A DNA stretch of 64,000 nt from Patiria pectinifera (Eukaryota; Echinodermata; Asteroidea; Valvatida; Asterinidae), in the NCBI GenBank assembly GCA_029964075.1, contig CM057136.1, forward strand, positions 5,642,001 through 5,706,000, given 5' to 3'. The translations under genes and the position numbers were made by a program. Shown here piece by piece: positions 15,001 through 42,000 of the stretch (positions are counted from its first letter, which is position 1; every line of letters starts with the position of its first letter). A model generated the notes under the pieces. It was not told the DNA's origin. It did no database searches and saw only the letters and a list, made by a program, of their open reading frames with translations.

Positions 15001-18000
15001 AATTTGTAAGTGTAAAAGAGTAAAACTTTGAAAATTAAAAGCAGTGTATTTCAATATTGAGTGTAACACTTTAATGATTAAAAATATTTTTTTTTTTCCT
15101 ATTTTTTTTTTTTCTTTAAATTGTTCTATCCCAAATCCCATAGACTTTGTACACGTTTTGTTCCTCGCGGCATTTTGGACCTAAAACAATCTCGTATTTT
15201 AATGAAACTTGTCCCATGTAAAGACCCCATACATGTAGTGCCATTGTGTACCGAAGTGATGTCACAATGACGTTATCATGGGTCACATGACATCATCTTC
15301 AATATGCAAACTTTAACACCCTATATCTAGAGAACTGTAAGTCCGAATGAGTTGAAACTCGGTATATAGGTAGACCGGAATGTGTTATAGACGAAAATTA
15401 AAATGACGTCATCATGACATCATCATGACGTCATCGTGTGATTTTACATCAATTTTTGAAGTTTTGGACCTTTAAGCCATATTTAATGAACGCAATATGC
15501 TAAATTCAAAATTCTTTTTATATTATGTTTGTTAGGTAACAGGCATACTCAAAAAATTGTGAAAATAATGTGACGTCATTATGACGTCATCAAAATGCTA
15601 TTTTTAAACACTCATATAAGGGAATGTCCAATCGTCATGAAACTTAGTGGGTGGGTAGATAATAGTACTAGTACAAAAAATGTGAAATGATGTCACGATG
15701 ACCTCATCGGTAGATTTTCTAAGATTTTAAAAATATTTACAATTTTATTGTGCTTACAAAACACTTTTATTCATCGTATTGGCTTCAAACATTCTTTTGT
15801 ATTAGGTTTTTTATGAAATAGGTATCTGCACAATATTTTTTTGAAAAATATATGACACGATGACATCATAAAAAAAATGCGATTTTTCAAAACACATATA
15901 AGGGTAAGTCCGTTTGACTTGAAACTTGGTGGGTAGTTGGATAGTGTTAATAGTATGCAGAATCTGAAAGTAATTTATGAGGATGTCATCATCAAAGTTT
16001 TTTATTAATTTATAATTTTTTAACATTTTCTTCTAATGCTTTAATGCATTTTCAAATATATTTTTTAACATTTTCTTCTAATGCTTTAATGCATTTTCAA
16101 ATATATTTCTTGAATATAAATATTAAAAAAAAAGAAAATGCAGAAAAGCACATGTCCTGTTCATCGAACAGGCATAGACCTCTGGTTCTTTTTATTCCAC
16201 CCCAAATCCTATTGACTTTGTACACATTTTTTAACTGGGGCACTTTGTAACTCGTATTCAAATGAAACTTTACCTATGTGAAGACCCCATAGTGCGTTCA
16301 TCATGGGTCACGTGACTTCATCTTAATTGTGCAAACTCAAAACACATAAGAAAATGTCCGATCATCATGAAACTTGGTGGGTAGGTGGGTAAGTACTCAA
16401 AATCAGAAATGATGTCACAAAGACTTTTGTTCATCTGTTTGGCTTCAAACTTGGTATAGACTAAAACCACAATAAAATAATGAGCACTGCCAAGTGACAT
16501 CATGATTACTTCATCATGGGTCACGTGACATCATCTTAAACTTACAGACTTGAAGACCCTATATCTGAAGAACTCTTAGTCCGATTGGGTTGAAACTCGG
16601 TATGTAGGTAGATCGGGATGTGTTAAAGGTAAAAATTGAGGTGATGTCATCATGACGTCATCGTGTGATTTTATAGCGTTTTTTAAGTTTTGAAGATTAT
16701 CACCATACCTCATGGACCCAACATGCTAAATTCAAAATTTGTTTGGTATTAGGTTTATTTAGTGATAGGTATCTGCACTTTCTTTTTGAAAAATGTGTGA
16801 CGTCACGATGACGTCATCGAAAACGTGATTTTTAAAAACACTTATAAGGGTAAGTCCGATTGTCTTGAAACTTGGTGGATAGGTAGATACTGTTAAAAGT
16901 ATGCAAAATCTTAAGTGACAACATGTTGACGTCATCACCTTTAAAAAAAAAATTAATTTATCAACTTTTTAACATTTTTTTCTATACAATAATTTGACAA
17001 AGTATTTTTTTGAAAGTATTTTTTTACACGTATTATTTTAAAAATGCGGAAAAGCCTGTGTCCTGTTCATCAAACAGGCATAGCTCTAGTTGTTGTTTAA
17101 TTTGTTCATAAATGGACAATTTGGAATTCTTGATAAACTAGCAGAACCATACAAGTGGGCCAGTAATACCCCACAATTTTCTCATCAGTTGGGAGTTGTC
17201 ATGCGCTTATTTTCTGTAATGTTGCCCCTATTCCCAATGTTCACAGCCAACAGCTGTCCGCCTTTGCCCAGACCCATGAATGGTGCCCTGTCCTGTGTGC
17301 CATCTGGTCTCATCTGCAGTGCCTTCTGCAATCAGAACTACCAGTTTGCCCGATTGCGTGGCCGGACTGTCCCTGACCAGTATGCCTGCGGAGTGATGTC
17401 AGGACAATGGATACCCCATGGCCGGGTTCCAGATTGCTCTAGTGAGTAATCATTTCAAACAAATATTTTATTAAAATTATTATTTCTGCAGATTTTTTAT
17501 GGATTTCTACATATTGTCTGGAGATTTTTTTGCAAATGTGGCTGTTCTTTTTATTGTAAATTTTGTATTAAAATCTCAAACCTGCTCTTCTAACCATTCA
17601 CAAGATCCTAGTCAGGCAAAATAAGGCTGTGGTTGACATGTAATTGATTTGTTACCGTATGATTATAACTTTGCTCATTGTCAAAATCACCAGGACGAAG
17701 GGGTGATGCTAACCTTCCCATGAGCCTCATGTACTTTTCTGGAGATTGCAGCGACCAGTCCACACAAGAGAGCATTGCATCGGCATTTATCACTATGATT
17801 GAAAATTCCCTTTTCATGGACGCCTGCACACTCACTAACAAATGCAACATTGAGAATGTGCAAGTGCATTGCGGGGCAGGAGGTCGACGTCTTGGGCAAG
17901 GCCCTGGGATGCACCGTCGTCGCCGGCGGGGCACTATCACAGATGACCAGCGTAGGAGCGAAGATGCAGTGTGGGGCAAGCTGTTTGCAAGATTAGATGC

Positions 18001-21000
18001 CACGCATATCCAGAGGCAAAAGCGAGACACTGATATCAACTTTGGTGTTTTGATCAGCTTTGACCTGAGCAATGAGATTGACTACGAGACAGGGATGGAG
18101 AGCCAGGATGCTGTCATCGCTGCAGAATCTGAGCTGAAGGACCGAGCTGATGGTCTGATGGCAGCGATAGGAAATGGGAGCTTGCTGGCTCTGAATATGA
18201 CCGGCATGAACTTAGAAGTAGACACAGACACGATGTCATACGGTGACTCAGTGGTGATCTGTAAGCCAGGCTATATTCTCAGTAATGATTCGCTCTACTG
18301 CAGTAAGTATCATTGAGTTGTCATTAAGTCATTTTTGTAGTTGTCTGTGAGTCACGGTCTGTGTTATTCTATATATTCAACTCAAATTCTTGAATTCGTG
18401 GTTTTTTGGAAATAAATTTTCATTTGTGGATATTTCAAAACCAGATCAATGGTGACAAGATTTCATAAATACATTAAACTTCTAATTGAAATTTGAGTTT
18501 TTTCTAAAATGGTTTTCAGTTTTGTGAAATGACATATTGATTTTTCCTTGAAGTTGTGAGATGTTTTGTGACATTCAGACACATTAGTCAATGAAATGCT
18601 AGGAGTCACTTAGTGTAACTGATTTGTTGTTCACAATGTTTGTAATAAATACTTTTCTTCTGATATTCAAAAATATAAAATTGACACCACATTGTCATGC
18701 CATGTTTGGTTAATATTTCAAGTAAATTTAAAGAAAAGTCATGGTAATATTCTTTAATTAAACACCAAGTGTCACACTTACTTTTGCATAATATTGTCAA
18801 TATTATGAAATGGTCGCCCATCCTTATATTTGACTTGTATTTTTTCCCTAAGCTGCGTGTAGTTCTGGGACGTGGTACAACAAGCTCACAGGGGAGTGTG
18901 ATTACTGTGCCAGAGGGAGTTATCAGAACCAGCAGGCTGCACAGTCATGCATAGAATGTCCCCCTGGAACAACAACAGCTACTGAAGGGGCCAAAAACAG
19001 CTCCTCCTGTGTAGGCAAGTGCAATGTTGGTGGAAAACTCTGTTGAAGGTTCACCAAAAATGAAGCGATGTAAATTTCCAAAACAACTGGGAGTTAATTT
19101 TACACTGAGTTTTATAAAAATGAGAGTACTTTGCAAATAAAGAGAACTGCAAATAATTGTGAAAATTGAAAATACTTTAATAAGATACATGCAGTTGTTC
19201 AAATTGACTTAAATCAACACATGGTTCTAGGCCGAAAATCTGAGTACTGTGGGGGAAAAAAAACAAGAAGAAAATCACAAAGTGAGAATGAAACAATTTT
19301 CTGGTCCTGATTTTGTACTTGATGTTTTTTGCCCAAGTTCTGGTGCTTTAGCTCATGGTTTTTGCGAGTGTGACGGAAGTTGGGGGCAGCATTGGGGCAA
19401 GTCAGCTGTTTGAGGGTATTCTTGGGGCCATTGGGATCCTTCCAAGATCTGGCCATTCATTTTGTGACTTGAATTGATTATAATGGGACCATCATGCCTT
19501 GATTCTCAATTAGAGGAGTGCCCAGTCGGTACCTTTTCTGCCAGTGGTGTCATTCCTTGCTTCAAATGCCTGATTGGTCATTTCCAATCCCTGCCTGGCC
19601 AGACGTCGTGCCAACCATGCCCAACTGGTACTACAACCCTCGACTATGAAGCTCAGACAGTGGACCAGTGCCTTGGTAAGTGGACAGATTTCATCAGGTC
19701 ATACCTTGCTGTGTAATATGCATAGCCACCTAAATCCTGCACATCATTTATAGAATGAAACTACAAAACATGTGGGTAGTAGTTGGCAAGTGAGGGGCAG
19801 GGTATCAATCCAGCTACTGTTTCGTTTGCCAAGCCAACGGTGCGTAAAAGTATACATTGGCACTGACATTGACTTACAGGAGTAGCCTTCGATGGGCTGA
19901 CAGCCCTACCGGAGGGGGGGGGGAGAGAAATGTTGTCAGTAATTGTGGTATTCTGAGGAAACTGAAGATAAACAGCGGCCTGATAAGCCATAATTGATCC
20001 ACACGTTTGACTTACTACTATAAACTCGGGCAGTGTACGCAGCTTCCCTAGTTTGAGTCATTCTCAATGTTTGACCAGCGTACCTCATCCCCTCTATTTA
20101 ACATTGCAGTAAATGAAGGGATGGGAACCAACCTACTGTGGTCCAGAACATTGCATGCATGCATTAGTTCTTATATGTAATTCCTTCTGTCTGCTCAGAA
20201 ATCTGCCCAGCAGGCAGTTACTCCGACACAGGACTTGCCCCGTGCCATCCATGTGAACGTCGTTACTACCAGCCTAGTATCCAGAAGCGTCACTGTGTAC
20301 TATGCCCTGGGAGGACTACCACATCGGGCAACGGGTCCACCAGTCTAGAACAGTGTATTGGTAAGCACCCTGACTAAACAGTCAGGGCACCACACTGGTC
20401 AGTTCAAAAGCATTTTTTAAACTGACCAGCATTAGAATAATCTCTCTATTTATTTTTTCAATATTCTTCAATGAAATAAAAATTTGAATTTGTAAGTGAG
20501 CTTAGAAACTTTTCAGTTTGGAAAGTGCTTGGTGGTCCCAGGGTTCAGTTTATGTTCTGACTTCTAAGTTCTTTCATTGCTTAAAATACCTTTATTTGTT
20601 ATCAGTTAGTTTTTTATTTAGAGCAACTTTGTCTATAGAACAGATTGGATTTTTATGCTGGGATCACTAAGCAGATATATATCTTCTAACAGACCTACGC
20701 CCGAAACTATAAAAACCCAAATATTCTAATCCTTCCCAAACTTGACAAGTAATGTACCAAAACGATAACCAATACTTAACCTTTAAAAAAGGGAATCTTT
20801 AAAAAAACACATTCTTTCCAAATACGTATCATGATAGGTAATAATTGCACCCTTTCTGAAGTGTATACTAAAAGCAGTTAGGTCCCGGTCTCGCTTCCTG
20901 TCAGCATTCTTGGCTTGAATGGTTTATTTTGAGTCAGTGAAAGACAGGACAGAGGGACAGCTTTTCAAATGGCTCTTTCCTCATCTCTGGTCAGCATTGG

Positions 21001-24000
21001 AACTGATTTACAATAATTCTTTAACTGTAGTATTAGAAGATAATTGGAACATTATGGAATGCTTAACAGCTGAAGTTTAAACGTTCAAGTTTAACAGCTT
21101 AAGCACATTAAATGGATTGAAGCCAAAAGAAACTAGTAACTTGACGATAAATACAATAGAAGAAAATGGGAAATGGCAGCATTTGATGATTTCCCATGTA
21201 CGCTTGTGTGACAACTGCCATCTGAGAAATATTGTGAAATTCAATATTAAACAATATCAAACTCAATGTGTCAGACTAAATCTTTGAAACAATAGGATAC
21301 ACCATCCCATAATCTAGATCCTATCTTAGTATTAATGTTACAACACATAAAGTTAGATGGTTGAAGTGATACAACTGTAATTATTATAACCAAGAAATCG
21401 GATTGAAAACTTGATCAAATCATGAATCTCTAAATAGTAATATATACAAAGTGATAAACTACTATTAATTCCAATAATAGGAGGTGTGATAAGTGAATCA
21501 TGACAGAACAAACCAGAGTTATGTCCCCCCTAGGTATTGAGATTGGCTGTAGAGGTCATGCATATTAAGAACAGGTGACAGGGGAATAAAGTAAGAAGTA
21601 TAAAGGTATATGGACTCAGTGCGCCTGCAAGCATTTTCACCACTTTTGGGAGCCCCATGGACCGGACACACCGCGTGTGCATACTGGGTCACGCACAGAT
21701 AGCTCCAAGTATGCATGACTGATTTTATTGTGAATGTGCATAAAGCCACAGCGTATTCGCATGAGCATCAGCCATCATCGGTTATGCCTTCAAATGCCTC
21801 TTCTGATGTCTCTCCCCGCAACTCTTCCTTTCTTGCCTTTGAGGGGGTACTCGTGCACGGAGTCCATAGTATAAATCTATAAAATAGGGAGGGGGTTAAG
21901 TTCATTCATAGCTGTGACACATGCATAGCTTGGGATATCCCGGAACCTGAGGATTCGACAACTAATCTAGGATAGGGTTAATCTGTAGACAATGATCAAT
22001 ATTTCATTATAGATATGGATGAGTGTGCCAGCTCACCGTGTGACCACCAGGCTACCTGTGTGGATCTGATTGATGGTTACCGATGTGACTGTCCACCAGG
22101 CTATCAAGGAGTCCACTGTAATGATGACATTGATGACTGTACAGACCATCGATGTGTCAATGAGGCAACATGTGTGGACAGGCTGATGGGTTACTTCTGC
22201 CAGTGCAGTCCAGGATTCATAGGTCAGACAGTACTCCAGACATCACTCCCATATATGTGGCAGCTGGTTATAACAGGACTCTTTTTAGTTGCGTTTCATT
22301 AAAAAAAATTATTTCCTTTTAATATGAAAGTTGAACCGTACTGAACACTTTAAGAAATCTGTGATGTTCATTGCAATGAAAATGGCAGGCAATGTAAACA
22401 CTGTTTGATGATCACATGCTGTAGTTTATGCTCTTCAGCAAAAGTATTCTTGACATTCAGAATTTGCATTTCGTGCAAAATTGTTTTTGACATCAACTTC
22501 TCATGTCTAGTGAAATCATTGAAAAGATTCTTTTGAAGAAATTTAAAAATGAACGTATCACACATGGACGGTTTGGAAATCTACCTAATTTGCTATGCCA
22601 AATGCGCCAACCCTGAAAATTTCTCTGCATTGTGTTCTCAGGCGATTTTTGTGAGATGAACATTGATGAGTGTGCATCCACACCTTGCTTAAATGACGGC
22701 ATGTGCCTGGATGAAGTCAACGGATATCACTGCCAATGTATGCCAAACTACCACGGGCTACATTGTGAACTAGAGATAAACAGGTGAGAATCACTGATGA
22801 CATCTGTCAATTTACCAACGGAACCAATCTGAACGGGTTTGCAACCCATTCAGATTGGTTCCCTGGGTAAATTCTGTCAGAATCAACCATGTCTGTAATA
22901 AACACAGAGTCAAGTTTGAACTGGTGACAAGCAGGTGAGAATCACTGACGACATCTGTGACTATAAACTTTGGATATGAATGTGAGAATCAGCAATAACG
23001 TCAATCAATTTACTGTGAGGTCAACTTGTAAATGGGATGTAGAGAGGTCGTAATCACTATGATGGTGCAGGTTGTTTTCTGAAACCTTCACACTGAGACA
23101 TTTCATGGGAGGGATTTTGAAAGGGATCTTGTCGTCTTTTGATTATCGGTTTAATATGTGTAAGGTGTAATAAAACATATAGGACGCTAATAAAGGGAAA
23201 TAGTGCAAAGTTCCTGGTTCCTTAGTGTTGGCTGATTTTTGACTACCTGCCAACAGGAGTTGGACAGAGAGTCAAATCAGCCAACACTTGTTTGTATAAT
23301 ATTAAAGAGTGTTGTTATCGGAGTGTTGGATCATACTGACTGTTACAATGAGTTTAGCCTCTGGTTCTACCAACTATTTTCCTTTTAGAGTTCGTCCCTT
23401 CACTTGGTGTACCTTGAAATCTATCCCATATTGCATTTGCCACCAGATAAAGCTTCACATTACATTGATATGTGTATTGATCCATTCAATACACTTTGAT
23501 TTTGTCCACAGCTGTTCTCCTAGTCCTTGCCAACATGGAGTATGTCAACTCCGTGATGGTGGGTACCAGTGCCAGTGTGCTGCAGGATACAGTGGCATTA
23601 ACTGTACCCTTGACATCAATGAGTGTTTCAGTGGTCCATGTCGCAATGGAGCAACGTGCCAAGATATGGCCAATGGTTACAACTGTGTCTGTGCTGTGGG
23701 TTATGAAGGCACTCACTGTGAGAATGGTGTGGACTGGTGTGCTGAGTCGCCGTGTCATGATGGCTCAACCTGTGTGAACCTTGGTTCGACATTTCGCTGC
23801 GTCTGCCCTGCACACCGATCAGGCGAGTTGTGTGACCAGACCCCTTGCCAGAATGACGCTGTCTTTCAGGTGAATGCAGACGACACATATAGGTGTTATT
23901 GTCAACCCGGCTTCACTGGCCACAACTGCCAGATTGACATCGATGAGTGTGCGTCACAACCTTGTTCCAACGGAGGTACTTGTGTCGACAGGCTCAATAC

Positions 24001-27000
24001 TTACCGGTGTGATTGCCCTCCTGGATTTGAAGGTCAGTTTCCATAATCCCATGCTCTAGGTGTAATGTTTGACCAGTCAGCCTGATATGCATGCATACCC
24101 TCAAGATGGAGCATACCCTCAAGAGAGCAATTAGAGGATACAAACCCTAATCAGTAGAGAATCCAAATGAATTTGGAGACTGTTCTTTGCTTATCAGAGG
24201 ATTATCTTGGCATTGCTTGGAATTTGTGGCTGCTTATGCCTGTAATAGTGTCCATGCAGTAAACATGGGGTATTCTCTCGCAGAGGAATATTTTAAGGAT
24301 TTTGGAGGGTCTTCTAAGAGCAAGGCTTACATCTTGTCCCCTGCAGTAAGATGACAGGCCATAAACATGCAAACTTAAAGAATTGCAAGTATGCTTTAAA
24401 ATCAAAAAACAAAAATCACCGAATCAAGATGTCAACACAAACACCATACCAGATCATTTTTTCTTTGAATGCCAAATATAAAACTCATAAGTCATTTCTA
24501 ATAAAATACAATGTTTAGCTCCTTACACATTCATTGCACCTAAAACATTCTAAATTGTGTTGTTTCAAACTCTGTCAAAGTTACTTCACAAATGCTGTGA
24601 TGAGTACAAACTCACCATCTGAATCTGAAGGCTACCTGTTTCCTGTTACTTAAATATCAAGTCATGAATGTGAGAAAGCTTAATTTTTCAAACCAATGAC
24701 CCCAACAGGCTGGCAGTCTTAAGAAAAAGAAAGGTCCTGCTAGACATTAGGCCCTCTATGATACAGTTTGTCTGTTTCAGAACATTCCAGACAGTAAGAA
24801 GTTTGCAAGAGCTTTATTATTATTATTTTTTTTTTTAAGGAGCGGCATGCACAGTTGACGTCGACGAGTGTTTGTCTAATCCCTGCGGAGCTGCTAACAC
24901 CTGTGAAGATGACATCAATGGCTACGCCTGCCTGTGTGGACCAGGATTGACTGGTACCCATTGTGAGGATCACCTTGACTACTGTGACCCCTCTGCATGC
25001 CAGCATGGGGCCACGTGCAGTAATACAGGCACAGGGTACCGGTGCACATGTGCTGCTGGTTTTACAGGTATGGCTGTGTGGACATTTATTGTTGAAGAAC
25101 TTCATGTGAGCATGTTTGATGTTGCAGGGGCTGGTATCACTGCAAGAACACCATGATATTTTCACCAACCACTGAAGTGATTGCCCGACCAAGTGTCAGA
25201 CTCAAGTCCAATATTTGTGTACTTACACATATGACGCATGCAGCTGGGACGGGCAGTGTGACATTTGAGAGGCACACATGCTGTTGTGCAAGATGGTCAG
25301 GCTTTTGATGTCCAGCCACTGCTAAATGAACACTTGATTTTTGGTCGACTGAACTGTTGGCATTTTCTCAGAGACTTTAAGCGGAAGATGCAGCACAGGC
25401 AAGACCATAGCCATTGGTTTGGCAGGGGGATGGGAGTTGAGAGCTAGGGGGATATGTACCTCCACATTAACTGGTGGGGTGCGCCATATGATTAACCTCC
25501 TGCATTTTTGTGCTTATCACAAAAAACCTTGATATTGACTTCTTCCTTTCAATATGATGACTAGAAAGTAACAGTAGTTGCTAAAAACACAAAACTATGC
25601 CTACGTAGTTGCACTGAATCCCAAAGCTTCAATTTAGGACATTATTTATACCCAGTGACTCGGGGAGTCAGTCAGCCAGGCAGTCAGTCAGGCAGGCAGT
25701 CAGTCATGGGTCATTAATTCAGTCCTTGGGGAGGCAGTAAGTTGGCCCTTTGGGTCCAGCAACAAAATACTGAAAAACAAAAAAAGTGGAAAGAACACAC
25801 AAACAGTTGTTCAGTAATTTTCAAAGTGCAGATATGTGCATTATGAATACATGCACAAAAGTGTCAATTATGAACAGTGCCACCTAGAGTCCAATGGTGT
25901 CATAATGACTGTGCAACAATGTAATGTCGAGGCCATGATATATGCTCATGGTTTGTGATATTATAGTTCACAAATTTCTGCTCAAGTAACCCTGAAGGCA
26001 ATGGATCATTAGTTGCTAGTAGAAAGGCACCATCCTGTGCTAAGAACGATATGAGAGAATGCATGCATCTGCAAGTGTCTTGTCAATTGAAAGGCAAGAC
26101 TAGAGGTCTGCCGTGCAGGCAGCGTGGACATTTTTGATGGTTAACTGCAAAGAGCCCCACTCAGTAAAAGGGTCATTAACTGGCTTCACTTTTAATTTTG
26201 ACATGTTTGTTTTTCCCTGTTAATTCTCCATCAAATGTAGGTCCAGACTGTGAGACCAACATTGATGATTGTATTTCTAGGCCGTGCCAACATGGTGGCT
26301 TCTGCGTGGACCTTGATAACAGCTTCATGTGTTTCTGCTTAGCTGGATTCATGGGACCACTGTGTGAATTGAACATTGATGATTGTACACCAAGGTAATG
26401 GACTAGTTCCCTCCTCACTTCTGATCAAGACACAAATGACATGTACTCAGACTGTTGAACACCTGTACCACTGTATGTTTAGTGCCTATGTGAAGAAGAC
26501 ACTATGGGTTTGTTTATGGCTTGTGTGATTACGAATATAATAAGCCATGCCTCTTTGCACCATGCCCTCATTCACAGTTTAATAAGTACAACAAGATTTT
26601 AGGGGAAGTGGTGCAGAAAAATAGGGACTCATGGAAAATAGGAAAGCTTGGGATTTTCACCGGGAAATTTCTTGTTTAAATCACGGGACACATTTTATTC
26701 ATGCTCTAATTTTTTTCCTTTGGGAACTAACTGGAAATTGTTGAAGCCAACAGACTGTCTGATCTCTGATCCTGCTTTTCGACCTTTGATGCTTTGACCT
26801 GATAATGACTTGATGTCACAATCGTTTTTAATTCGCTTCGTTTCTGTTACGTAATTGTATTTATTACGCGCGCTACGGCTATCGCGCCACCCCCGTATTG
26901 TAAAGTAGATCGTGCCATAAGTTTTTCTCCAATCGTGTACGCACATTTTCCCGGTAGTTTCTTTTCCAGCCACTAAAAATTAAGGCATTGATTTGGTCAA

Positions 27001-30000
27001 CCTGCTAAAACGCCGTGCGTCGGGTTACGTAATTATTATTGTCCGTGTGGCCATGGTTATTGATGTCCGTTTGTTTCTGTGAATGTGAGTATTGTGTGAA
27101 AGAATGTTGGTTGTTGTCAAGTAGAAGTTGTGTGCGTTTTCTGATCAGTGCATTCTCTGATCGAGAGAGAAGACACACCAACAAAATTAGAGAGATCTGA
27201 GCTGAGTGTGACAGAGACCGGTACCATCTTGCTAGGAGACGCCTGATACAGCAGGTTTTCGTCAGCAGATCGGTGAAATCTGCCACCGATCTTGTCTGAT
27301 CCGCCAGTTTGGCAAAATCAGTGCCAAAATAGTCTCGGCAAGGCTAAAAGCCACCTTCCCGGTCCTGTAGACCACGCTCAGAGCAACACTCAGCCTTCAC
27401 AAGCATCATAATGAAGAAATAACCGTAAGTGTTGTATTTAATATTATATCTCAAATTCCGAAAATTAGAATCTGTAGTTTATACCATTGATGGTGATTGT
27501 TAAGAATAATAAATTTCTTGGTAAAAAGTGCTTGAAATGATACATTGAGATGAAGTGCAACCTTGACACGAAGTCTAGCTATACGTGACATCTTGAGATT
27601 TATGGATATACTGTAATTTTAGAACAAAATACTGGATGGGTTTCGGTAACTGTTTTATATTGTAGATGGCCGGAAACCTCACAGTACGAGTTGGGTTCAT
27701 GATGAATGCATGTAGAAACGACTGCAGAACGACTACGATGTCAGTCTGTACATAGTGTGTCCCGTGCCGATTGACCGTGTCCTATCAACTGGAAACGTGC
27801 CACGGAGACGAGACCCTCTACTAAGGAAAGTGCCTCACTAAACAGTTAGAAATGTAAAGTTTTAAATTTGCAGAAAGCTGAGATTTTGGTTTTGGAATAA
27901 TCATAACAAATATAAGTTGATTTAGCTGTTTGAAGGAATTAAGTGTGAACAGAAGTATTGATAATTGAAATTGTCGAATTGAGCGTTCTAATCCGAAAGG
28001 TTGATTACTTTGATATACCCAGTTTATCAGAACCAAACAGAAGTATTGATATTTGACAGAAGTGAATTTTGAATTATGATATAGTCACGGTTGGATTTTA
28101 GATCCCAATTGTTGATATTTGATTTGACTGAATTTTGAATTAAATTTTGGAGCTAAGGCTGAATTTAAACAAGAGTTACGGCTGAATTTTATAGCCATAT
28201 TCTACAGTTGGATTTGATTTTTGATTGTGTCGTTGTACACCCAGTTAGAGATTTGTGATTTTTAGAAATTTCCGAGTTAAGCTTAAGAAAATTGAATTTG
28301 TAGACCGAGTTGTTGGAGTAGAAAGTAAAACTCCTAACTGAGATTGAATATGAGAAGTTTGATCCCGAGTCCGGATCTTTGTAAATATTGTAAATAGTTT
28401 GAGTTTATGAATATAAGTAATTGGTGAATTATTTCCTTGTTTCTCGTCGTCAGTTCTTTCTGTCTTTGTACTTTAGTTTCTTTTTGACCGGGGTCATCAC
28501 TTTAAAAAGTCGAGTTTTATAGTTAGTGGTGACACTTGATAATGACTTTTGAGAAAGGGAATAAATGTGTGCTTCGGAGGTTTTTATCACTCTGTTTAAG
28601 ACCACTTAGAGTCTGGGTGCTGATAATTACCCGAGCCGGAGGCGATTATCAGCAGTCTTAAACAAGTGATAAATATATTTATTCCCATTCATTAATACCT
28701 TTTCGGTAAAAAAAAATCATATAATTCGTTCAAAACATCCCGATTTTGTTCAACAAATTCACTTTATGCTTTTTGAAACATCCCTCTTGCAAAATAATGG
28801 AGTGTTCAGCTGGCGAGTAAGATGTAAACAACCCTTTTATGGAGATTGACGCGCGCGTATCACGTTCTGCGCGATGTCGCGCAGAACACACTTGGCGCGT
28901 TGCGTTTTGAATTTAGAACTATAAAATTCTGACTCCCTGGTAGTGTTGCGCATGCCTACGTGAGGATTGTGAACGTTCAACCAATGAAACGATAAGAGGC
29001 ACTGGATTTTTAGGAGTCCACATTTGATTGTGACACTGGAAAAGTGTTTAAGACCAGCTAGCCATGTCTTTATCATCCGTTTAAGACCGGCCACGTGACG
29101 GGCTCTCGACCAATAGGAATGCGTAAACTGACTTAGGTATTTATGAATATTTTTTATTAAGTAAAACTACAAGAAATATTGCCTAAAATCTTTTCCTTAT
29201 ATTTACAGTGCTTGCCATAACAATGGCACTTGTATGGACAGCATCAATGACTTTACCTGTGTCTGTCCGGATGGTTTCACTGGTGCCCACTGTGAGGAAG
29301 TGGTCAATTATTGCCACAGCAGCCCATGCTACCACCAAGGGGTATGCCAGAATGACCCACCGGCTGCCTATAAGTGCATGTGCTCACCAGGATTTGTTGG
29401 TCATGACTGTGAGGACAACTTTAATGAATGCTCTTCCTATCCATGCATAAATGCACTTTCCTGCGTAGATGGTGTCAACAGCTACACATGTGTCTGCAAT
29501 GAAGGATATACTGGCCCCAACTGCGAGGAGGAAGTTGATGAATGTGTCAGCGGACCGTGTGAGAATCATGGGACGTGCCTGGACTTGGTGGCTGGGTACA
29601 GGTGCATGTGTGTTGCCGGGTACACTGGGGTTACCTGTGAGCAAGACATAGATGATTGTGCGGCTGTTTCATGTCACAACGGGCTGTGTGTGGATGAAGT
29701 TAATGGCTTTCAGTGCTTCTGTCTACCGGGTTGGACAGGTAACTTCTACACAATTCCTCATAGCTTTTTTAATGCTGAGCAAATAGCTTTTTTTCATTTT
29801 TTCTAAAGTTGGGCCAATTTCATGGCTAGGGTTCTACAAACTAACAGTGTAAGCTAACTAAAGCAGACAAAACATTTGCATATTTCGTTGCTGAGCAAGA
29901 AATATTGGCTTGTATATTTGCATAAAAACTGGTTATCAGGCTAAAGACCTTATTATGTAAATTGCTTGGGAGTGGTTCCAATCTTAGAATGTAATTTTTG

Positions 30001-33000
30001 TGAGGAAATCATGTTTTGCTGAGCAGCTCATTACAATTTGGTCACTAATATTCCACCATGCTCCGATACTGTAGATATTGCAGCCACTGTTGTATTTTGT
30101 TGACAACTACCCTTTTCCTAAACTTGACAACTGGTGCTTGGTAATGTTGGTTTTCAGGTCAGCTTTGTGATGAGGATATAGATGAGTGTGACTCAGCTCC
30201 CTGCCTACACAGCAGTGAGTGTCAGGATCAGCTCAATGCCTATATCTGTCAATGCTCACCAGGCTACAATGGTACCAACTGTCAAGAAGACATCAATGAA
30301 TGTGTCAATGTTCAGTGTCAGCATGGAGGCACTTGCATGGATAAGGTGGGGCTGCTTGATTGTATACAAAAGTGTGACACTGCTGGTCCTTGGGTATTGG
30401 CTGATTTAGACTACCTCCTGATGAGGAAGTCAATACAAAGGATCATTCATTTTGCACTATTTTCCTGAAATAAGCCGTGTTGTAGTTGTGTCAGTGGCGT
30501 AAATCTGTGTCGTAAATCTGTGTCGAGGACTCAGAGGATGACACGTGAAAGATTCTGTTTCGTTTGTTCGTAAGAGTGTGCCTGAAAATATAGGTAAGAA
30601 AATAAGGGAATTTAATGTTTAACAAAATTAGGGTGTAATTTTTTGGGGGTTTTCTTTTCTTTTTTTTTGAAGGCGGGGTACAGCAATCACACAATCCGTA
30701 CATAGTAATTGGCCCCCAACATGGATAGCAATATAACATAGAGTTCTTGTACAAAACAGTGTCAGAATTTTGTAAGTTTTTTTACTGTTTAAAAAGTTTT
30801 TGACCAAAAAGGTATTTGGGAATGGGAATAGCAGTGTGGTGGATTAGTATTAAAACATCTGGTTGAAAACCAGGTAGGGGCCTGGTCGTCGATAATGAAC
30901 CTTGCAATCACATTATCGCCAAGCAGGCCCCTACCCAGTTTGAAATCAGATGTTCAACTGTCCCACCCATAGACATATAATAAACCTAGACACGACATTT
31001 GCTATTGCCCCTGTGAGCAAAATGCTGCGCGTATAGAACAATGTTAATTACGCGAACGCTCATTATTGGTGTGACGCGTCGCCCAAGATTTTGCGCGACG
31101 CGTCACGCCATAATGAGAGCGGTCTCGATCACTGCGTGCGTTATTTAGAATCGTTTGGTTCCGCACGCATGTGGAAAAAAACAACTAAGTGGTGCACAAG
31201 TGCGTTGGCGCCGCTGGCCTGAACATACGTCGGTATATGTATAAAGTATGCGCGTGAATCGAAGCTTACACCATCTTCAAGGTAATAGATTTAGCTTGAG
31301 AATACCATTTGTTTCATTGAGATTGCTTTTGTAAATCCAAAGATATGTTTGAATAATGGCAAAGCCAAGAAACCCATTTTGTGCCACTTTCTGTGAAGCA
31401 GTTAACATCAGTATAGTCTTAGTCTAAAACCAAATCACTTTACTGTTAATGATTTTAACATTTTTAAGGAGAGCGTGCAATATTTATTTATATTTCATTG
31501 AACTCTTTCATTGAAGTTTTAAAGAAGTGAACCTGTCTGTACTAGTAAATTGTTTCATCATAAGAACAAAACCCTATATTTTCATGTGAACGGAATGTTT
31601 GTCTTCCACCCATAGGGATAACCTTATCAAAAGAGCCATACTGGCATTGTCTGATCTTTGAAGCACTCACTTTCTAAAAGTGGCACAGAATATTTTTTTT
31701 TTTTGGTTTTGCGGTTATTCAAACATATCTCTGGATTTACAAAAGCAATCTTAATTAAACAAACGGTATTCTCAAGCTAAATCTGTAACTTTGAAGATCG
31801 TGTAAACATTTGCAGTAAATTCCGGTTGTAAATTGGTAAAAATGGCGGAGTTTACATGCACCATTATTTTCAGGACGCCCTGTAGTACAAGAATCATTCA
31901 AATCACTCATGTACTTTTCAAGTAAGTGAATTTTGAACACAAACACCGTTTCAAAGTTCTGTCCACGGATCACAAAAAAGGTAAGTGTTCTTCCTGCAAA
32001 ACAAAAACAATTCACATGCATCCCTATGTGTGAAATGTTTTCGTTTTGCCGAAAGAACACTTAGTGCTGTCATATGAAAATATATGTGTCTATTTGTGTT
32101 CCATTTTGGTTAGGTTATTGTCACCAAGTGTGGTTTAGTGCTGTCATATGATAAGTCAGACTTCAATCTCAAACTTGGTGACTGTAATCTTTGGGTAGGG
32201 GGACGTACTTCAGATCACTTGGGACATTTGAGGTCAAAGGTCATCAAGGGGTCAAATGAGGTCATTGGGCTTTTTTGGTTAGTTAAACTGAAAAGTGCTG
32301 TCATATGAAAAGTCAGGCTTCACTCTCAACCAAACTTGGTGACAATAATCTTTGGGTAGGGGGACTTAAGATGACTTAAAAAAAATTGAGGTCAGAGGTT
32401 ATCTATGGGTCAAATGACGTCAGTGTTGATTTTGCTTAGGTCAACTGAAAAGCTGCCTGCTGCTAGCATGCCAGGGGGATCACGCAATATTTTAATAACT
32501 TGTGACTTGAATTGAGTCTGGAGGTCTTTGTGTTGGGGTCTCCACCACAAACCTGTTTCCTGACACAATGCATTATGAACAATGATATAATATGTCATCT
32601 CATATATACAGGGTGAGTCGGAATGATTGGTACCCGATTTCAAACAAGTTTTTGAAGATAGGGTTGAAAATAGTACATCATTGGAAACCCATGTAACTTG
32701 GCTGTCATTTGGTGCAATGGGGAACAGGATGCGACAACATTTCTCAAAGTAACAATTTTCAAAAACAATAGGGGAAAACAAGGCTGTCCACGGAATATGC
32801 AATAACGTGTCAGTTTTACTACAGGCTAGACATGAATGACATACGCACATAAATGGAATCCTTCATCATTCTCATTCATGTGAAAGGAATAACAAAATGA
32901 GACGGAAATGATTTCAGAAAAGTTTATCCATGTCAACCGTTTGTAATCTATCAGCTGTGCAATAATCAGAAACATTGTTGAATAAACCATACGACAAGTT

Positions 33001-36000
33001 AAGAAACAAAACGTGACATTTTAGCAGATTTGCACTTCAATCTATAACCATGCCCTCATGTGTAAGTGCCAGTAAGTTTTTGGCCAGATTAAATGATCCG
33101 TGGACAAAAGCGATTTTCATGAATTTTGAGGAAAAACTGCATCTCCTGACCCACAAAAGCAACATTTATGAAACAATGATCAGGTGATTGCTTAAACCTT
33201 GTATAATTGTGTTTCTTCAAGTCTTTAAATTGCCTCATACTTGTCTTTAAGTTGACAAAAAATCCCTTTTAACAGGGTACCCGTCTTTCTGACTCGCCCT
33301 GTGTATGGGTTGTAGTGGGTTCATATTATCCAAGATGACTGCTGCGTCTCTCATATTCTTCCTCATTTTCCATGATCTCAATTCTCCTGGATATGTTGTG
33401 AAATAAAAAGTGTAAATGTCTTAAGTGCAAAAACTAGACAGAAGTGTGACCCTTCAATGTAAGTTGATCACAAAACTTTTCCTGTTGATGTATTACATTT
33501 TCTTGTCCATTTTAAATAATGAAAGGTTTGCGGAAACACCATGTGCGAATAATTTCTCAACTAAGAGAATGGTTCTGAAAAGAACCAGAGGTATACCTCT
33601 GGTTCTTTTCAGAACCATTCTCTTAACATTATTTAGTATCTCCACCATGCAAAGCCTCAAATCTTACTTGTCCATTTTATGTCTACAAGTATATAAAAAG
33701 AAGTCAATATGAACATTTGAATGATTTACTCACTAGGTTGCCGCTTTTGATTGCGCTTGCCTCTATGGCTATAGAGGGCGCTATTGTGAGGAGGAAATCA
33801 ACGAGTGTTTATCCAACCCATGTCAAAACGGAGCCACCTGCCTTGATGAAGTTGCCGCTTTCTCCTGTGATTGTCTGACTGGTAGGTTCCAGTTTAGCAA
33901 CCAGCTAATGTTGAGTATCATGTGCCTGCAGTGCACTATCACAACCCCGCTGAATGTGCACAAACCAGTAGCATCTATCTGTAGGTGCTGGAAGCGTAGG
34001 ACAACGTCAAAGGCACTGAAGTGTTTGGTCCCTTTCTCTTTTTTCACTGTTGACTTCGAGACAGAGTCCATTGAAGGTCTTTTACAGTCACCTACAGACT
34101 AAGGGTTGTTCTTAAGTACCATTTCTGGCTCTCATCAATGCCATCTACAGCTCCTGCATGTGCCACTTCAAGTTAGTTTAGACATCTTTGTTTTGTAGCT
34201 CAATGAAATTGGCCGTTGGTCAAAGTGAAGACTTGTGTTGTGTAAGGCTTATTCCTTGGCACAAAGACAAATATTAGACATTGCATTGCATAGCCATGTA
34301 GTTCTGATTTTTATTGAACTGTCTGCTTTGTCTACAGGTTTCACTGGTCCCCTGTGTGATGTGGAAGTGAGAAGTGACCCGTGCACCAGTGCCCCTTGCA
34401 GTAACGGAGCTTCCTGCGTAACCGAAGGCAACAGTTTCTTTTGTACCTGTGTAGATGGATACAGGTGAGCTTAGAACACATCAGCCACTGTCTCTTGTTT
34501 GGTCGATTTTTACTATTTTACCTGGACTACCCACAACGGCATTGTTCTGAAAAGTACTGTATCCATAGCAACTGAGTTTTATAAATTAATTGGCAGCATT
34601 TGTACGACCATGTGACCCTTACATTTATATATCAGTACAGTTGATGCGATGTGATGTAGTGACATAAAATGAAAATCTAAAATTTTATTTTTTAAACACG
34701 TCCCACCTTGATGTGATTGAAGATCATGGCAGGATCCCCATAAGACAGACTATATTACTGGTTGAATAAACTGAAATGGAATAAGATAGGAATCTTAAAC
34801 AAGTGATACATTTTTTGACACAAAAATAAATCCAAATAATTATGCAAATGTGTGTGTTTTTGTTCAACAGTGGGGAACTATGTGATGTGAACGTTGATGA
34901 ATGCATGAGTCAGCCATGTGAACATCATGCATTGTGCATAGATGACCTCAGTGCTTACCAGTGTGCTTGCCTACCAGGATACGTTGGCGTTCATTGCGAA
35001 AATGGTAACATTCATTCACTTAAATGCACAGTTATAATGGGGGAAAGATTTCCATATACGAAGTTCACTCAACACCCTGTGTACAAACCCTATGAAAATT
35101 CTAAGTGTTTTCTAAGAAAATGCTTGTATTTTCTCACTGCTCAAATTGACTTTGATGACATGAAATTGCTATCTGGGGCTTGTTAGTCAATACAGAGGAA
35201 AATTAGTGAACTTCGTATATGGAAATCTTTCCATAATGGGAATTAGCAATGACCATTAAAGGCTTTGAATAGCATTTCTTCAAAATTATTTCTTCAAAGT
35301 GAAATGAGAAAAACGTCTTGATTAACTTACCAAGTATTATGGCTCTTTTTCTTTCTTACTATTGATAGAATTATCAACGGATTTTGACCTGGTATTCTCC
35401 AACAACACTGCATCAGACATCATCCAAGTCACCGGCGTGACCTCTGCTGGACTGTCTGAACTGTCCCTTACCCTGTGGTTTAGATCATCGGCCTGCACGG
35501 ATGACATCATCATGGCAAAGTTATCCACTGCAACGACCAATGTCCTTGAGATCAGAAATCCATGCAACCTGCTGCTGTCGCTTCTTGGGTGAGTTACAAT
35601 GGGTAGTCTGACATTTCAAAAACAAATTCTCCTGTAACTTCATTCTCTCGCTAAAGCGTGACATACCTTTTTGCAAAGGCTTTGTGTTTTAGCTAATTAA
35701 AGAAAAAGAACTACAAAGTTGAGAAAAGAAATTGACTGGAGTGGGGTTTGAACCTGCAACCTTTGACAATGAGTTTGTTCAAGGATCACTATTCAGAAGC
35801 CATAGACCCGTATATGCCATGTAGCTAAGGATAACACCTTAATTCATGATGCTAGCAACAGTAGCCATGTTGGGAACCCGGGAAATAGCAAACGGGCCAT
35901 GAGGATCATTCAAGAGGATTCGCTGCTTTTTTATTCATTTTCAAATAAACCACAATGGGAAACTGATCAGGTGCATTATAATAATTTTTTTCAATGTTGA

Positions 36001-39000
36001 ACAAAGAAAATGAATGGAGCAGTGTAATGGCATATAATGAAACGTACATCACATTTTATTGCATAAGTTACACATATTATGATGCATTTCACAAAAGTTA
36101 TACCTTGCGTTAGGTGTTGATAAATGGATGATGTTACTGTCTAGTTATGATGGTTTTAACACCCATCGTTGCTCAAATTAAGATCGATACCAGCTGTATA
36201 TTTCAGGTTCATGAAATTCTTCAACATTCAGCAACAATTCAGTAACACAAAGGCTCCTTTGCACCCCTTTTCCCCAGCCTTCACTGTCCTCTTGCATTCC
36301 TGCAGATAGACATTTCATCAGTGCCATTGATGTAAAGAACATTGCCATTCCTCCCTATGTTTTTATTCAAGCCATAATGTTGGTGTGGGGAGCCGGAGAG
36401 ATTTCTGCGAGGGACGTTGGCACAACATCATGCTGGTCTTGAAACACCCGACTAATCTAGAGTGGAAGCTGTACATTGACCAGGCATTGGCAGCAGAGGG
36501 CACTGTCTCAACCCCCACAGGAAGTTTTCCAAGTGGCTTGTCATTAACCATTGGCCCTTCGGGTGAGATTTCTATTGAGTTTTGGAAAACAAAACTGTAC
36601 TGCAAGGAAAATCTTGAGCAGCTGATATTTTACAGATCAGATATGTGAAATCCTTTTGGGCTGCTTCAAAATTGCAAGGAAAGTGATCACTAATGTAAAG
36701 TTGTGAAGTCACGACTAGTAGTTGCACCGAACATTTTGCAAAAGTCCAACACACTTGAGTTGTGGACATTTTGTAGTGTCTATTTATTTATGATATGAAA
36801 TGAAGGTGTGCATGATGAAGATGGCAATTATTGTTTTCAATGTTGAATATGAGTCTTTTTTGTAATGATTTATTTGAAATCTTGCTTCATTGAGGTTTTG
36901 ATGACTGCAGTACTTGGGAGGAGGATATTGAGTTTTTAGATGCACAGTAAAATGTTTAAATAATTCCTAATATTTCCCACACTATCTAGTTTCTTCAGCT
37001 TCCGAACTCTACCATATTGTATACTTGTAGAATCAGAACAAACCTCAACGCCAACACTTTAAAATTATCAATTTTGTATTTATGCTTATTTGGTGCACAC
37101 CACAGCAAAACTTTTTAACTTGGGATTCTAGGATACCTATGTAGGAACGAAGGTGTGCTGCAAGTAAATTGTGTTGCAAGTCTAGTAGTTCCTGATGACT
37201 TTTGTTTGCATCAAGATTTTAACATGTATCAGAATTTGACCAACTACAAATGTTGTTTTCAGACTCTGAGACTGGTCCTGGTGATTGTCAGTTGGAGCTG
37301 AGTGGCCTGAACATATGGCAGGAGGCCCTAAGTGAGGTGGAGGTGACAGATGTTGCTGCCTACTGCGTACCGATCACACCTGGCAATGTCTTTGCATGGG
37401 GGCAAATCATGGCACTTCCTGGGCCTGGAATCACACACACATTGAGGGCGCCATCAATGTGCGATGGTAGGTAGAAACCATTTCCCTCCACAAAAGTGGG
37501 AGAAAGATTAACACATTTTGAGGACATTGATTTGTTGGACATTGATTTGTTGGAACATTTATCCTTAAGATATTGTTTTGTGGGAGCTTTTTTACATTGA
37601 ATAATTTTTGCAAACATTAAATTCACTTCCATTGTTGCTGTCCTCGCTTGGTGATCATAAGGGTCAAATGCAATTGTATTTTGCACATGACTGTTTTCAG
37701 CTGATTTAGCTTTTGCTTACTTAAAATTATGTCAACTCTAACAAAATGTCCTCGTTTTTCTGTCACTCAAGATTATGATGAATGTTCCAGCACCCCTTGT
37801 GAGCATGGCGGGTTGTGTGAGGACCGGCTTGATACCTTCTTCTGCCATTGTACTGAGGGTAGGCTAGGAGACAGGTGCCAGACCATGCTTGATTTATGCC
37901 TGCTGAATCCCTGCCTTAATAATGGGATGTGTCACAGTGACTTGTTTGGATTCAGGTGCCAGTGCCCTGTGGGATACACCGGCAGGGTGTGCGAAAACCA
38001 GATTGGTAAGTCCTACTTGGGCCACGTCCCAAGTATAGAGCACTGTCAATACAGTGTATTGAGAGTATCAAAACTATAAAAGCTTGCGAATATGTGCAGT
38101 GCAAGAAAATAGACCTGCATATGTAACATTCCACTCCAGGACTTTTTAGAACTTCACAAATATTGTACGTCTCAAGGACCATCTGTTATGAAGTGTCTAT
38201 TTCCATACAATCTTTCTACAGTCTTGCCACTATGTGCTGCTTATTTGAACCACATGACTTGCTTCTCTGATGCTAAAGATTGAATAAAACTCAGTCGTAA
38301 ATATATCCAGGATATTTACATGATTCACGCTTATCCTTGGGTGTAATGTTTATAGGAACCACCCAGAAACACCCCAACATCCAACAATGGGCAGTGACCA
38401 GTTGTCAGCCCACATAAAGACAAGAACAGTTTCACTGCTTAGAAGAGCTTTTAAGACTTTGAAAGTAACCAGAATAAAAAATTGTTTAAATGACAAAATT
38501 GCCTATAAAAATGATGGTGTTGCATTAAAAGGAGGAAGTTAAGTAAAAAGATGAAGATAATGAAAATAATTTCCCAGCTTAAATTGTTCATTTCCACAGT
38601 GCAATGCAAGTTCACAAGGTGGGGACTGTTTTCATCAATATAGTATATACCGAAATTTTCGGAATATAAGCCGCGGCTTATACGTTGATTTTGCCCATGA
38701 AAATGTTTACTGCGGCTTATACACAGGGCGGCTTATACGCCGAGCCTTGAAGAATATGCTTTCCCAGCGGACCACACCATTTGAGATAATATAGGGGTGT
38801 ATCTATCTTAGAAATGGCAGCATCGCTTTAAAAAAAAAAAAAAAAAAGGACTTTTACTTTTATTAATTCCAATTATTTTTTTCCAATCAGTTGTTCAACG
38901 TCATCATATATAATTTTTGTAATGTATTGAAAAATGTATTCAGACTGTAAAAACAACAGGGACTACATCACTTCCACAACAAAATTAATGGGTTCGCCCA

Positions 39001-42000
39001 TGAAAAAATGGCAGCATCGTTTGACTATTTGAGTAAAAAAGAAAAACTCGAACGAATAATACTGCTCAGTAAAATTTAGTAGCGCTCGGTCAGACAACAC
39101 ACGCAATGGGGAAAATCACGTTGGGGTCCATACTCTCTCTGTGCTGCAGGAAAAAATGTTGTCCTAGGCGGCGCGCGCAGGCAGGCGCGCGCGCGCATTA
39201 ACTTTACGCGGTTGGGGACCGACGGGGCAGGGCAGCCGGCAGCAATTCGGTGATTATTTCTCATCATCAACATTTGCTTTGTTTGTTAGAGATTGTAAAT
39301 GTAATGATGATACAACATTTTGGCTAGAATTTGGAGGCCATACAAAATTGAAACCGCTGCCGTCGGTGCGGTTTATACGCCGGCTTGCTTATACGCCCTT
39401 CAATCTCTTTAATTTGCAGATTTTGCGTGCTGCTCTTTTCGCGCCGCGTATTATATATAAATTCACGGTATCTTTGCAGTGTTTAAAGTAGCCAACCACG
39501 AGAGGATTTTTTGTTAATTTCACAGTTGATGGCCAGTGGAGTGTATGGATGTCTTGGTCCCCATGTTCAAAGACATGCGGGACTGGCAGTCAGCTCCGAT
39601 TTAGGTCATGTGACAACCCGGAGCCCCAGAATGGAGGGGCACAATGCCCGGGGGTATTCTACCAGTCAGAGGAGTGTAACACAGACAGATGCCCCAGTAA
39701 GTCATGAGTAGTGTGTTTGTAATCCACTCCGGTGAAAAACATGTCATGAATGGATATTGTATTCACAAACTTCAGCACTTCTGGCATTTCCTGGTTTTAC
39801 TTAGTTGTTAACAAATCAGGAAACTTAAGTTTAAAAATGAAACAAGACCTCAAACTTTACTTGTAACTAATCACATGTAGGGATTTATTTTTCATTTTCT
39901 TTTTGATAATTTACCCCACGAACCAATTTCAGAATTGTCATCAATTTCTGGCAAACCACATATAACTGAACAATTTTCATCCTTAGCCTGTCCAGTTCTG
40001 CGGAGTCCGCTGCGTGGCTTCATTGATTGCAATGAAACCGACGATGGGGAAGTTTCGTGTCGTATCTGGTGTCGGGACAGCTATGTATTCAGTACACCAC
40101 CACGGACCGAGTACCGGTGTGGTCCCAGTACTGACTACGTGTGGGACCACAATCCTGAGAACAGCCGCTCAGTTCGACTGCCAAGCTGCAGCTGTAGGTC
40201 TTTTTGTGTCTTTTCGCATGTAGACAAGTACTTTCCAAAATCCATCCCAAACACCAGTCAGAAATATCAGACAATCGGTTTTAAACATAATGACAAAATT
40301 GAAATATGTTCACTGATAATCTACGGGTTTTTTATGCGTCTTTAAATTGATCAGACAATATTAGAATGGCCAAATTGCCATTAAGAGTTAATTTACATTC
40401 TCTTGTTGCCAGGTAACACAACACCCTGTACGACTCACAAGTCAGTCTGTAGGATCACTTGTTGCAGCACAGAGTCACTCTCATTATTGTCATTGCTATC
40501 CATACTTGTCACTTTCCTTTTTGTCACACGGCAGTATTGGTTCCCCGCGTTGCCATTGCTGCCAACATCACCGTGACATATCCTGATCTGCACTGCGGCT
40601 CACAGAGTGATCAGCGTGACATCTACGATGGGGCTTCTGCTACCCTGCACAATTCCACGCAGGGGGCCTCAGGATGCCTGGCACTAAACACCTGTGCTGC
40701 TAACATCACCGTGAGTATATCCATTAACCCTGCAGGCATTTGTGCTTGGGATCTTCCTTCATCCTCAGACGTCCTGCACTGCATAGGATACCAATGACAC
40801 ATTCTACACACTGCCATCAGACAGAACAGGGCTGTAGTTAAGTGTATATTAATAGAAGATTCTGGAAACTGATTGAATTCTCTTTACCATACCAAGACCA
40901 CATTCCGACCATTTGAAGGAGTGTGATGCTGTTGTATTGGTCTAAATGGAATATTCAAACACAATAGCCATTTTTTCCAAGTTGAAGAAAAGCAATTATT
41001 GACAAAATGTCTCACCCTGAAACACATGCACTATATATATGTAGGACCTTTTCAACAAAGTTACCAGCTAAGGACCACACATTTTCACAGAGCAGGCCAT
41101 AAACAAAATGTGCGTGGCCAACATGAGATTTACACGTAGGAGAGTTAATGAGTGAAAGATTTTACAAAAGTTGACTTGATGTTTCGAATCGTGTGCTTTG
41201 CTTTTTCTTCAGGAGAAACTTTCCTCCGTTTTATTATGCAAGCCTTGTTTTTCTAACCTTGTTGCAGGTCTCCAATTGTGACACACAAGAGCACCGCACC
41301 ACCAGGGCTACCGTGCGGAAGAGAAGCTCACCATCCCCAGTCAAAGTGACTATTTTGTTCACCATGGCTGACCATACTTCAGTTGGCCATAGTGGTGTTC
41401 CTGACAGTAAGTGTCTATTCAGCCTTGCCTTGCACATTGCTCCCCTTCAAATTTTTGGATTAAGTTTAAAGAGTTGGGTTTTGGTTTTATTTAAAATCAA
41501 ACATGAATTAGGAAAGTTGAATAGATTTCAAATCAAGAATATTTTGCTGCCCCCGTTTTGTGAAAAAGGCTGGTTTTTAATAGGTGAATAGTATCACCAC
41601 ACATTAACAATCATTTATTCGTGGGGAAGTGTCCAACATAATTGGCAGTGAATAGCACAGACAGGTTCTGTTCATAGTTTTCCATTAATCCTTCTGACCT
41701 TTTCTTCCCCTATGTCTTATGTAGATAGTTCAGTATTAACAGAAATGGATATCAGATCCACCCTTGATGAAGTGACAGAACTCATGCAGCAGGGGCAGTT
41801 TGGCATCATGTACCATGGAGAAGTGTCACAGCCTGACATTGAGACTATTGCTGAAGATGGTTGGGATGTCTGTCCACAAGGGAGTGTGGAAAGTGAACAA
41901 GAGGGGCTTTGTAGTGAGTACAACATTTCACCAGCCTTGTGTGCATTGTATATGATACTAGTCTGGGACAGTGCACTTAATGTTTCTGAAGCTTGGACTA

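Follow-up and report, generated by a model that had tools for sequence, protein, structure and literature searches.

A domain repeated between sushi-like and GCC modules in a SVEP1-like gene of Patiria pectinifera, and its suggestive likeness to the SCUBE spacer

Introduction

With regard to the systems closest to the locus described here, SVEP1, also called Polydom, has been described as a secreted matrix protein that is linked to disease, and on secretion it is cut into chains of 115 kD and 270 kD (PMC10281526). Work on thyroglobulin links SVEP1 to the SCUBE proteins through the GCC module (PMC3464141), and the spacer of SCUBE1 is reported to be required both for secretion and for tethering to the membrane, its detailed structure being unpublished as far as that text states (PMC10214685). 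In this study, we investigated a window of 64,000 nucleotides on chromosome 8 of Patiria pectinifera (assembly GCA_029964075.1, contig CM057136.1, positions 5,642,001-5,706,000 of the forward strand; genome of 613.5 Mb), which holds a SVEP1/Polydom-like gene. An original prediction, made from the letters of this window, held that one undescribed domain occurs twice in the encoded protein, each time just before a GCC module. We call the two occurrences copy 1 and copy 2, and report that the duplication is supported, that the repeated unit is probably larger than was predicted, and that the SCUBE spacer is a suggestive counterpart.

Results

Structure of the two copies

The gene models rest on splice-site reading alone, and the exons of both copies were rebuilt from the DNA; their boundaries are of the AG...GT type with matching phases, phase 1 standing at the outer ends of both copies. 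All window features given here lie on the plus strand. Copy 1 (202 residues) occupies a single phase 1-1 exon at 17694..18302, as indicated by translation, splice sites and genome matches. Read in sequence, it begins with a cysteine frame, C-x25-C-x5-C-x8-C (17747..17872), followed by a basic loop (17873..18043) with RRRR and RQKR (18014-18025) as convertase-type sites. The part at 18047..18169 comprises a hydrophobic strand (VLISFDLS at 18047), an acidic stretch and a helix, as placed by the structure model, and it lies in the half in which the profile test detected similarity to copy 2. A closing C-x2-G...C, recognised by its cysteine rhythm, ends the exon at 18260..18301. The first GCC (PF07699) exon follows at 18853..19010 and two further GCC modules at 19528-19671 and 20213-20356, all found by Pfam and by a GCC search of the genome.

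Copy 2 (167 residues; frame C-x26-C-x5-C-x8-C) is divided over three exons, defined by splice sites and translation and, for the third, also by genome search. The first (40535..40710) carries the first strand, a helix and cysteines 1-3; the second (41268..41406) has cysteine 4, RTTR, RKR at 41316 and the strand VTILFTMA at 41346; and the third (41725..41913) holds a helix, a strand and the closing motif. A single GCC exon comes next at 42090..42260 (splice sites, Pfam, genome GCC search). The landmarks of each copy, in their order up to the GCC exon, and the contrast of one exon with three, are thus as originally described. The closing motif is likewise present in both copies; its assignment to the unnamed domain probably does not hold, as it would belong to the GCC modules as the start of their array, because it continues their rhythm C-x2-G-x~9-C-x2-C. 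For the two window copies, matches to Protein Data Bank (PDB) sequences at E <0.001 begin at or in this motif and run into the GCC part.

Homology of copy 1 and copy 2

Comparison of sequence profiles supports copy 1 and copy 2 as duplicate copies of one domain. The profiles were built from relatives in the same genome, with 16 rows for copy 1 and 11 for copy 2, and the controls had their non-cysteine columns permuted while the cysteine columns were kept in place; c16_L037, whose first exon is missing, was dropped from the copy 1 profile, and in K1 (L027) the probable middle exon is missing from the assembly, which leaves its strand unseen. Aligned with hhalign, the two profiles gave a local score of 41.5 (Prob 84%, E 7e-6), the permutation controls reaching a maximum of 25.0 with a mean of 12.7 (n=200). 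After removal of the closing motif the score was 36.7 against a control maximum of 18.7 (n=100), and the second half alone scored 37.2 against 16.2 (n=100), this half being judged in local mode only, as permutations in global mode gave at least one aberrant score (132.9). Since the second half exceeds its controls and the first does not, the homology beyond the cysteines is carried by the basic site, strand, helix and strand.

Through the cysteine frame, the first half is tied to the second. In a simulation, random placement of four cysteines along 62 positions gave C-x24..26-C-x5-C-x8-C at a frequency of 9.3e-5. The full frame was observed in 25 of the 29 assembled members, all fitting C-x22..29-C-x3..6-C-x8(9)-C, and it is partial in the other four because one exon is unassembled. 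The spacing between cysteines 3 and 4 is x8 in 24 of the 25 full frames and x9 in one; the frame of L025 is not independent, its splice sites having been chosen partly by it.

Several results weigh against this homology. Direct hhalign comparison of the two window copies showed no similarity (E 0.23), in line with the weak direct similarity originally claimed; profiles restricted to chromosome 7 likewise showed none between copy 1 and copy 2; and the first half alone, at 10.0, did not rise above the mean of its permutations, which is also 10.0, with agreement in the cysteines only. The similarity that the original prediction looked for in profile alignment was therefore found in one half and not in the other. 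Such results would be expected if the segments were unrelated linkers that acquired cysteines and basic stretches convergently between a sushi-like module and GCC, the more so as basic stretches evolve easily. Against this stand the second-half profiles, which lie beyond all 100 local permutations, the same flanking modules around both window copies and the nearly constant x8 spacing, and we consider unrelated linkers highly improbable.

The repeated cassette

Directly before each copy lies an exon encoding a divergent sushi-like module with six cysteines and one tryptophan, at 17247..17441 before copy 1 (AG/GT boundaries, translation, alignment) and at 39987..40193 before copy 2 (splice sites, alignment, pattern scan). 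None of seven such modules matched Pfam Sushi (PF00084), which recognised all three ordinary CCP modules tried from the window, and the seven align with 10 invariant columns. Pattern scans of the examined loci detected the module ahead of the unnamed domain in 15 separate places: it is present at both window copies, at all eight chromosome-7 copy 2 loci, at one of the eight chromosome-7 copy 1 loci (L021), at L025, L026 and L034, and in a SCUBE-like gene described below. The same scans found none upstream in the other seven chromosome-7 copy 1 loci, nor at L027, L029, L032 and L037, which speaks against a constant unit; some of the loci without it hold little upstream sequence. The order sushi-like module, unnamed domain, GCC is found at both window copies and in the SCUBE-like gene. 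This order is well supported, and the repeated unit is most likely the sushi-like module, the unnamed domain and GCC together. The claim of one undescribed domain repeated with the GCC module that follows is upheld by the profiles, and its boundary probably is not, the unit seeming larger by the sushi-like module.

Relatives in the genome and age of the duplication

GCC modules match 98 of 150 scored candidate places in the genome, many of them clustered, and the loci around these matches yielded more copies, in genes of chromosomes 7, 18 and 20. More distant copies lie at C7:34.37, C7:34.33, C7:33.01 and C16:9.64 Mb (chromosome and position). A genome search with copy 1 gave 17 places, the window included, three of them with E >0.01; one with exon 3 of copy 2 gave 12 places at E <=10, again with the window, four of them below 1e-5. 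The other eight copy 2 places, at E 0.27-7.3 only, rest on reading of the loci, which lessens their value as evidence; this reading covered seven of them, C18:12.0146 Mb (L030) included, with C18:12.3538 Mb as the exception. Two further copy 2 places (L012, L020) were recognised by reading those loci. At 13 of the 17 copy 1 places, a copy 2 lies downstream in the gene direction on the same strand within 14.5-60 kb; of the remaining four, C7:37.456 Mb has a copy 2 upstream only, and at the three distant ones none was detected.

In the tree, which has long branches, all 16 copy 1 rows are separated from all seven copy 2 rows with support of 99/98 (98% of 200 bootstraps); the incomplete c18_L030, c20_L033, c7_L024, c7_L020 and c16_L037 were left out, and L028, L035 and L036 stand outside the assembled member set. 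The duplication therefore preceded the divergence of the chromosome 8 genes from those of chromosomes 7 and 18, and judged by these sequences it predates much of the gene family. Chromosome 20 genes also hold both kinds of copy, their copy 2 rows being too incomplete for the tree. With respect to gene structure, three chromosome-7 copy 2 loci were inspected (L012, L014, L024), and all eight exons recovered there have splice sites in the phases of window copy 2; at L024 no middle exon was detected. Shared intron positions were dropped as proof, as the second intron has phase 0 in L025 and L026 and the positions are not uniform.

The family of SVEP1-like genes is large and in part tandemly arranged, with members at C7:33.0-43.1 Mb, C18:12.0-12.4 Mb and C20:18.9-27.7 Mb, and a lineage-specific expansion of matrix or immune-type proteins is possible. 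Within it, the GCC match at C7:42450904-42451047 has a frame otherwise typical of a paralogue with one TAG, possibly a decaying copy, and beside the copy 2 of the paralogue at L012 (4482-5100) lies a long degenerate repeat with KSITSPSQVHH in several frames.

The basic loop

The basic loop after the fourth cysteine is shared across the family. Of the 27 members in which this part is assembled, all have RXXR there and 25 have RX[K/R]R; many are near-identical tandem copies, which leaves about 8 independent lineages, and the arginine-rich composition of the loop yields such motifs easily. Window copy 1 is among those with RX[K/R]R between the two halves, and the two members without it are window copy 2, with RTTR and RKR only, and L033, with RAAR. 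By analogy with described proteins, the chain would probably be cut at this stretch: a putative cleavage site is drawn on a schematic of SVEP1 or PEAR1 (PMC9932102), and the spacers of SCUBE1 and SCUBE3 carry furin-type RXXR, that of SCUBE1 also a polycationic stretch (PMC10214685). Some points tell against such cutting. It would be less certain at window copy 2, RX[K/R]R being absent there; the texts consulted do not say where Polydom is cut with respect to the unnamed domain; and SCUBE2 is described without an RXXR site (PMC10214685).

This last point would also suit a homologous domain whose loop is a binding site for heparan sulfate or matrix rather than a cleavage site, as would the arginine-rich loops of the assembled members and the report that clustered basic residues enable the Scube2 spacer to bind heparan sulfate and that mutants lose this binding (PMC4873810). 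The Scube2 motif is, however, a basic helical one of 23 residues in the C-terminal portion of the spacer (PMC4873810), and its equivalent may be the helix after the strand rather than the loop. With RX[K/R]R kept in nearly all members, and with Polydom known to be cut on secretion, we regard a loop that only binds as unlikely, and continue with a convertase site.

Predicted fold

Outside the GCC part, the window copies gave no Pfam family above the cut-off and nothing in NCBIfam, and no Pfam model covers the unnamed domain. The family profile found nothing significant among PDB sequences (best E 1.8). One of 12 members matched RS_preATP-grasp-like at E 7e-4, which was taken as chance, as no other member matched. 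A single-sequence AlphaFold2 model of copy 1, with a mean pLDDT of 38.9, placed a strand at residues 6-15, helices at 21-36 and 39-46, a strand at 51-61 and a helix at 83-102, and then a strand at 114-123, a helix at 137-158 and strands at 163-167 and 184-187. In this model, the order of elements would fit two strand-helix-strand halves with the cleavage-type site between them. Both the low mean pLDDT and a fold search with the model that returned nothing significant from the PDB (best E 0.36) detract from that fold; the HMG-CoA reductases, a ferredoxin-like protein and a MUC16-mesothelin entry, found at E 0.36-2.9, were given no weight.

SEA domains and Notch heterodimerisation domains are ferredoxin-like alpha/beta sandwiches built of strand-helix-strand halves, with a cut site in the central loop between them. 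The unnamed domain might hence be of one of these types, cut in its central loop and held together afterwards, as the modelled strand-helix-strand, loop, strand-helix-strand order with a site in the middle would suggest; copy 2 also lies near a likely transmembrane segment. None of 12 members, however, matched the SEA (PF01390) or Notch NOD Pfam models at E <=1, PDB sequences gave no such match, and the low confidence of the model and the absence of a significant fold match likewise disfavour it, so that membership in these families is fairly unlikely. The broader proposal, in which SVEP1/Polydom and SCUBE share a so far unrecognised convertase-cleaved domain of a Notch-heterodimerisation-like or SEA-like kind that divides these matrix and morphogen-release proteins into two chains held together afterwards, appears to us distinctly unlikely. 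If it were true, the second copy near the transmembrane segment would produce an ectodomain that is cut yet retained, and Notch-like shedding of it would be conceivable.

The SCUBE-like gene

A SCUBE-like gene lies at C20:8.971-8.996 Mb on the minus strand (L057 1-9000, L039 857-1183, L031, L038). It contains, in order, EGF-like exons read by eye, a sushi-like module, three exons that encode a candidate domain, three GCC modules and CUB (E 9e-13), presumably in one transcript. This agrees with the order described for SCUBE except for the sushi-like module, which the five-part SCUBE layout given there does not name between EGF repeats and spacer (PMC10214685). The candidate shows C-x29-C-x3-C-x8-C, RGKR, a strand and a basic helix (by reading) and CQPG...C, and the phases of its second intron and last exon, also by reading, are the same as in copy 2.

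Compared with the joint profile of both copies, the whole candidate scored 24.2 in local mode against a maximum of 20.6, and 15.5 against 14.9 in global mode, among 200 cysteine-preserving shuffles, and it reached 25.8 (local) against the copy 1 profile. The unnamed domain may thus be the SCUBE spacer, for which sequence and module order are suggestive. Four results reduce this likeness: the HH probability is 10.6% in local and 2.9% in global mode; the local match is confined to 22 columns in the region of cysteines 2-4; the copy 2 profile gave only 18.5 local and 3.1 global; and the scores of the halves taken separately were reached by 16 (first) and nine (second) of 200 shuffles, because of which the link is not firm. 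The low HH probability, the copy 2 scores and the results for the separate halves would be expected if copies 1 and 2 are one domain, the SCUBE spacer is unrelated, and the shared sushi-like/GCC order arose separately. We hold such a separate origin to be somewhat unlikely, given that the whole SCUBE sequence lies above all shuffles in both modes, that the module order is the same on both sides, and that C-x3-C-x8-C, a basic stretch with RGKR and C-x2-G...C occur in the same order.

In position, the region matches the SCUBE spacer. Were the SCUBE link to hold, the unnamed domain would have been described before under the name of spacer, but no domain model of it would exist. The SCUBE spacer has a reported length of 227-241 residues, which would fit a sushi-like module plus the unnamed domain. 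Among the open-access papers searched, no text was found that links SCUBE and Polydom by this domain; one paper names both, in its reference list only, and the thyroglobulin work joins SCUBE and SVEP1 by the GCC module (PMC3464141).

Other features of the gene

Pfam matches in the window gene include Sushi, three HYR, EGF, GCC and TSP1, which presumably share a transcript. The thrombospondin type 1 exon lies before the second cassette at 39526..39696 (splice sites, Pfam). For vWFA and pentraxin, one open reading frame (ORF) before 3.8 kb was scanned for the N-terminal part and gave no match, nor did the ORFs 35326-35589 and 36331-36645 match Pfam. The ORF at 42935-43282 contains a hydrophobic stretch at 43214..43270, likely transmembrane (mean Kyte-Doolittle 2.73 over 19 residues), which would belong to the same protein as the two copies. 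By this one stretch, the window gene apparently ends in a transmembrane segment, unlike the secreted SVEP1. Farther on, a sushi-like ORF at 61888-62214, seen by eye, lies far 3' of the likely end of the gene and perhaps belongs to a neighbouring gene.

Discussion

Taken as a whole, our data are best explained by an anciently duplicated cassette domain, possibly also the SCUBE spacer, that forms a convertase-cut alpha/beta unit, an account that we hold at slightly better than even confidence. Copy 1 and copy 2 are ancient copies of an extracellular domain set in a cassette of sushi-like module, domain and one or more GCC modules, and the same cassette would likely be the spacer plus cysteine-rich part of SCUBE. 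As modelled, the unnamed domain would be an alpha/beta unit of two strand-helix-strand halves joined by the long arginine-rich loop. A proprotein convertase would cleave this loop while the protein is being secreted, and the resulting chains may remain associated by way of the domain; by analogy with the SCUBE spacer, heparan sulfate may be a further ligand of the basic stretch. Moreover, if one domain is shared, its boundaries and a loop to mutate would be indicated for the SCUBE and SVEP1 fields, and SVEP1 cleavage would become connected with SCUBE processing. The window gene provides a natural duplicate and a series of paralogues that show which features are constrained.

With reference to known systems, the SEA and Notch heterodimerisation domains would resemble the unnamed domain in the predicted order of elements and in a cleavage-type site in the middle, and they differ in that no sequence match was found and that the unnamed domain has four cysteines in its first half. 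Thyroglobulin Tg2 (GCC2-GCC3) has the GCC module that is common to SCUBE and SVEP1 (PMC3464141), and does not match the body of the domain. SVEP1/Polydom has CCP, HYR, GCC and EGF modules like the window gene, and the region to be compared lies before its thyroglobulin-type-2-like (STT2R/GCC) repeats; peculiar to the window protein are another cassette, a TSP1 module and an end that is likely transmembrane. The SCUBE-like gene differs in having a single copy over the stretch that was read, in an additional pair of cysteines, in a second helix that is basic and in CUB after GCC. It also has a preceding sushi-like module, followed in order by C-x29-C-x3-C-x8-C, a basic stretch with RGKR, a strand, a helix and C-x2-G...C, and the spacer of SCUBE1-3 likewise stands before three GCC/cysteine-rich modules.

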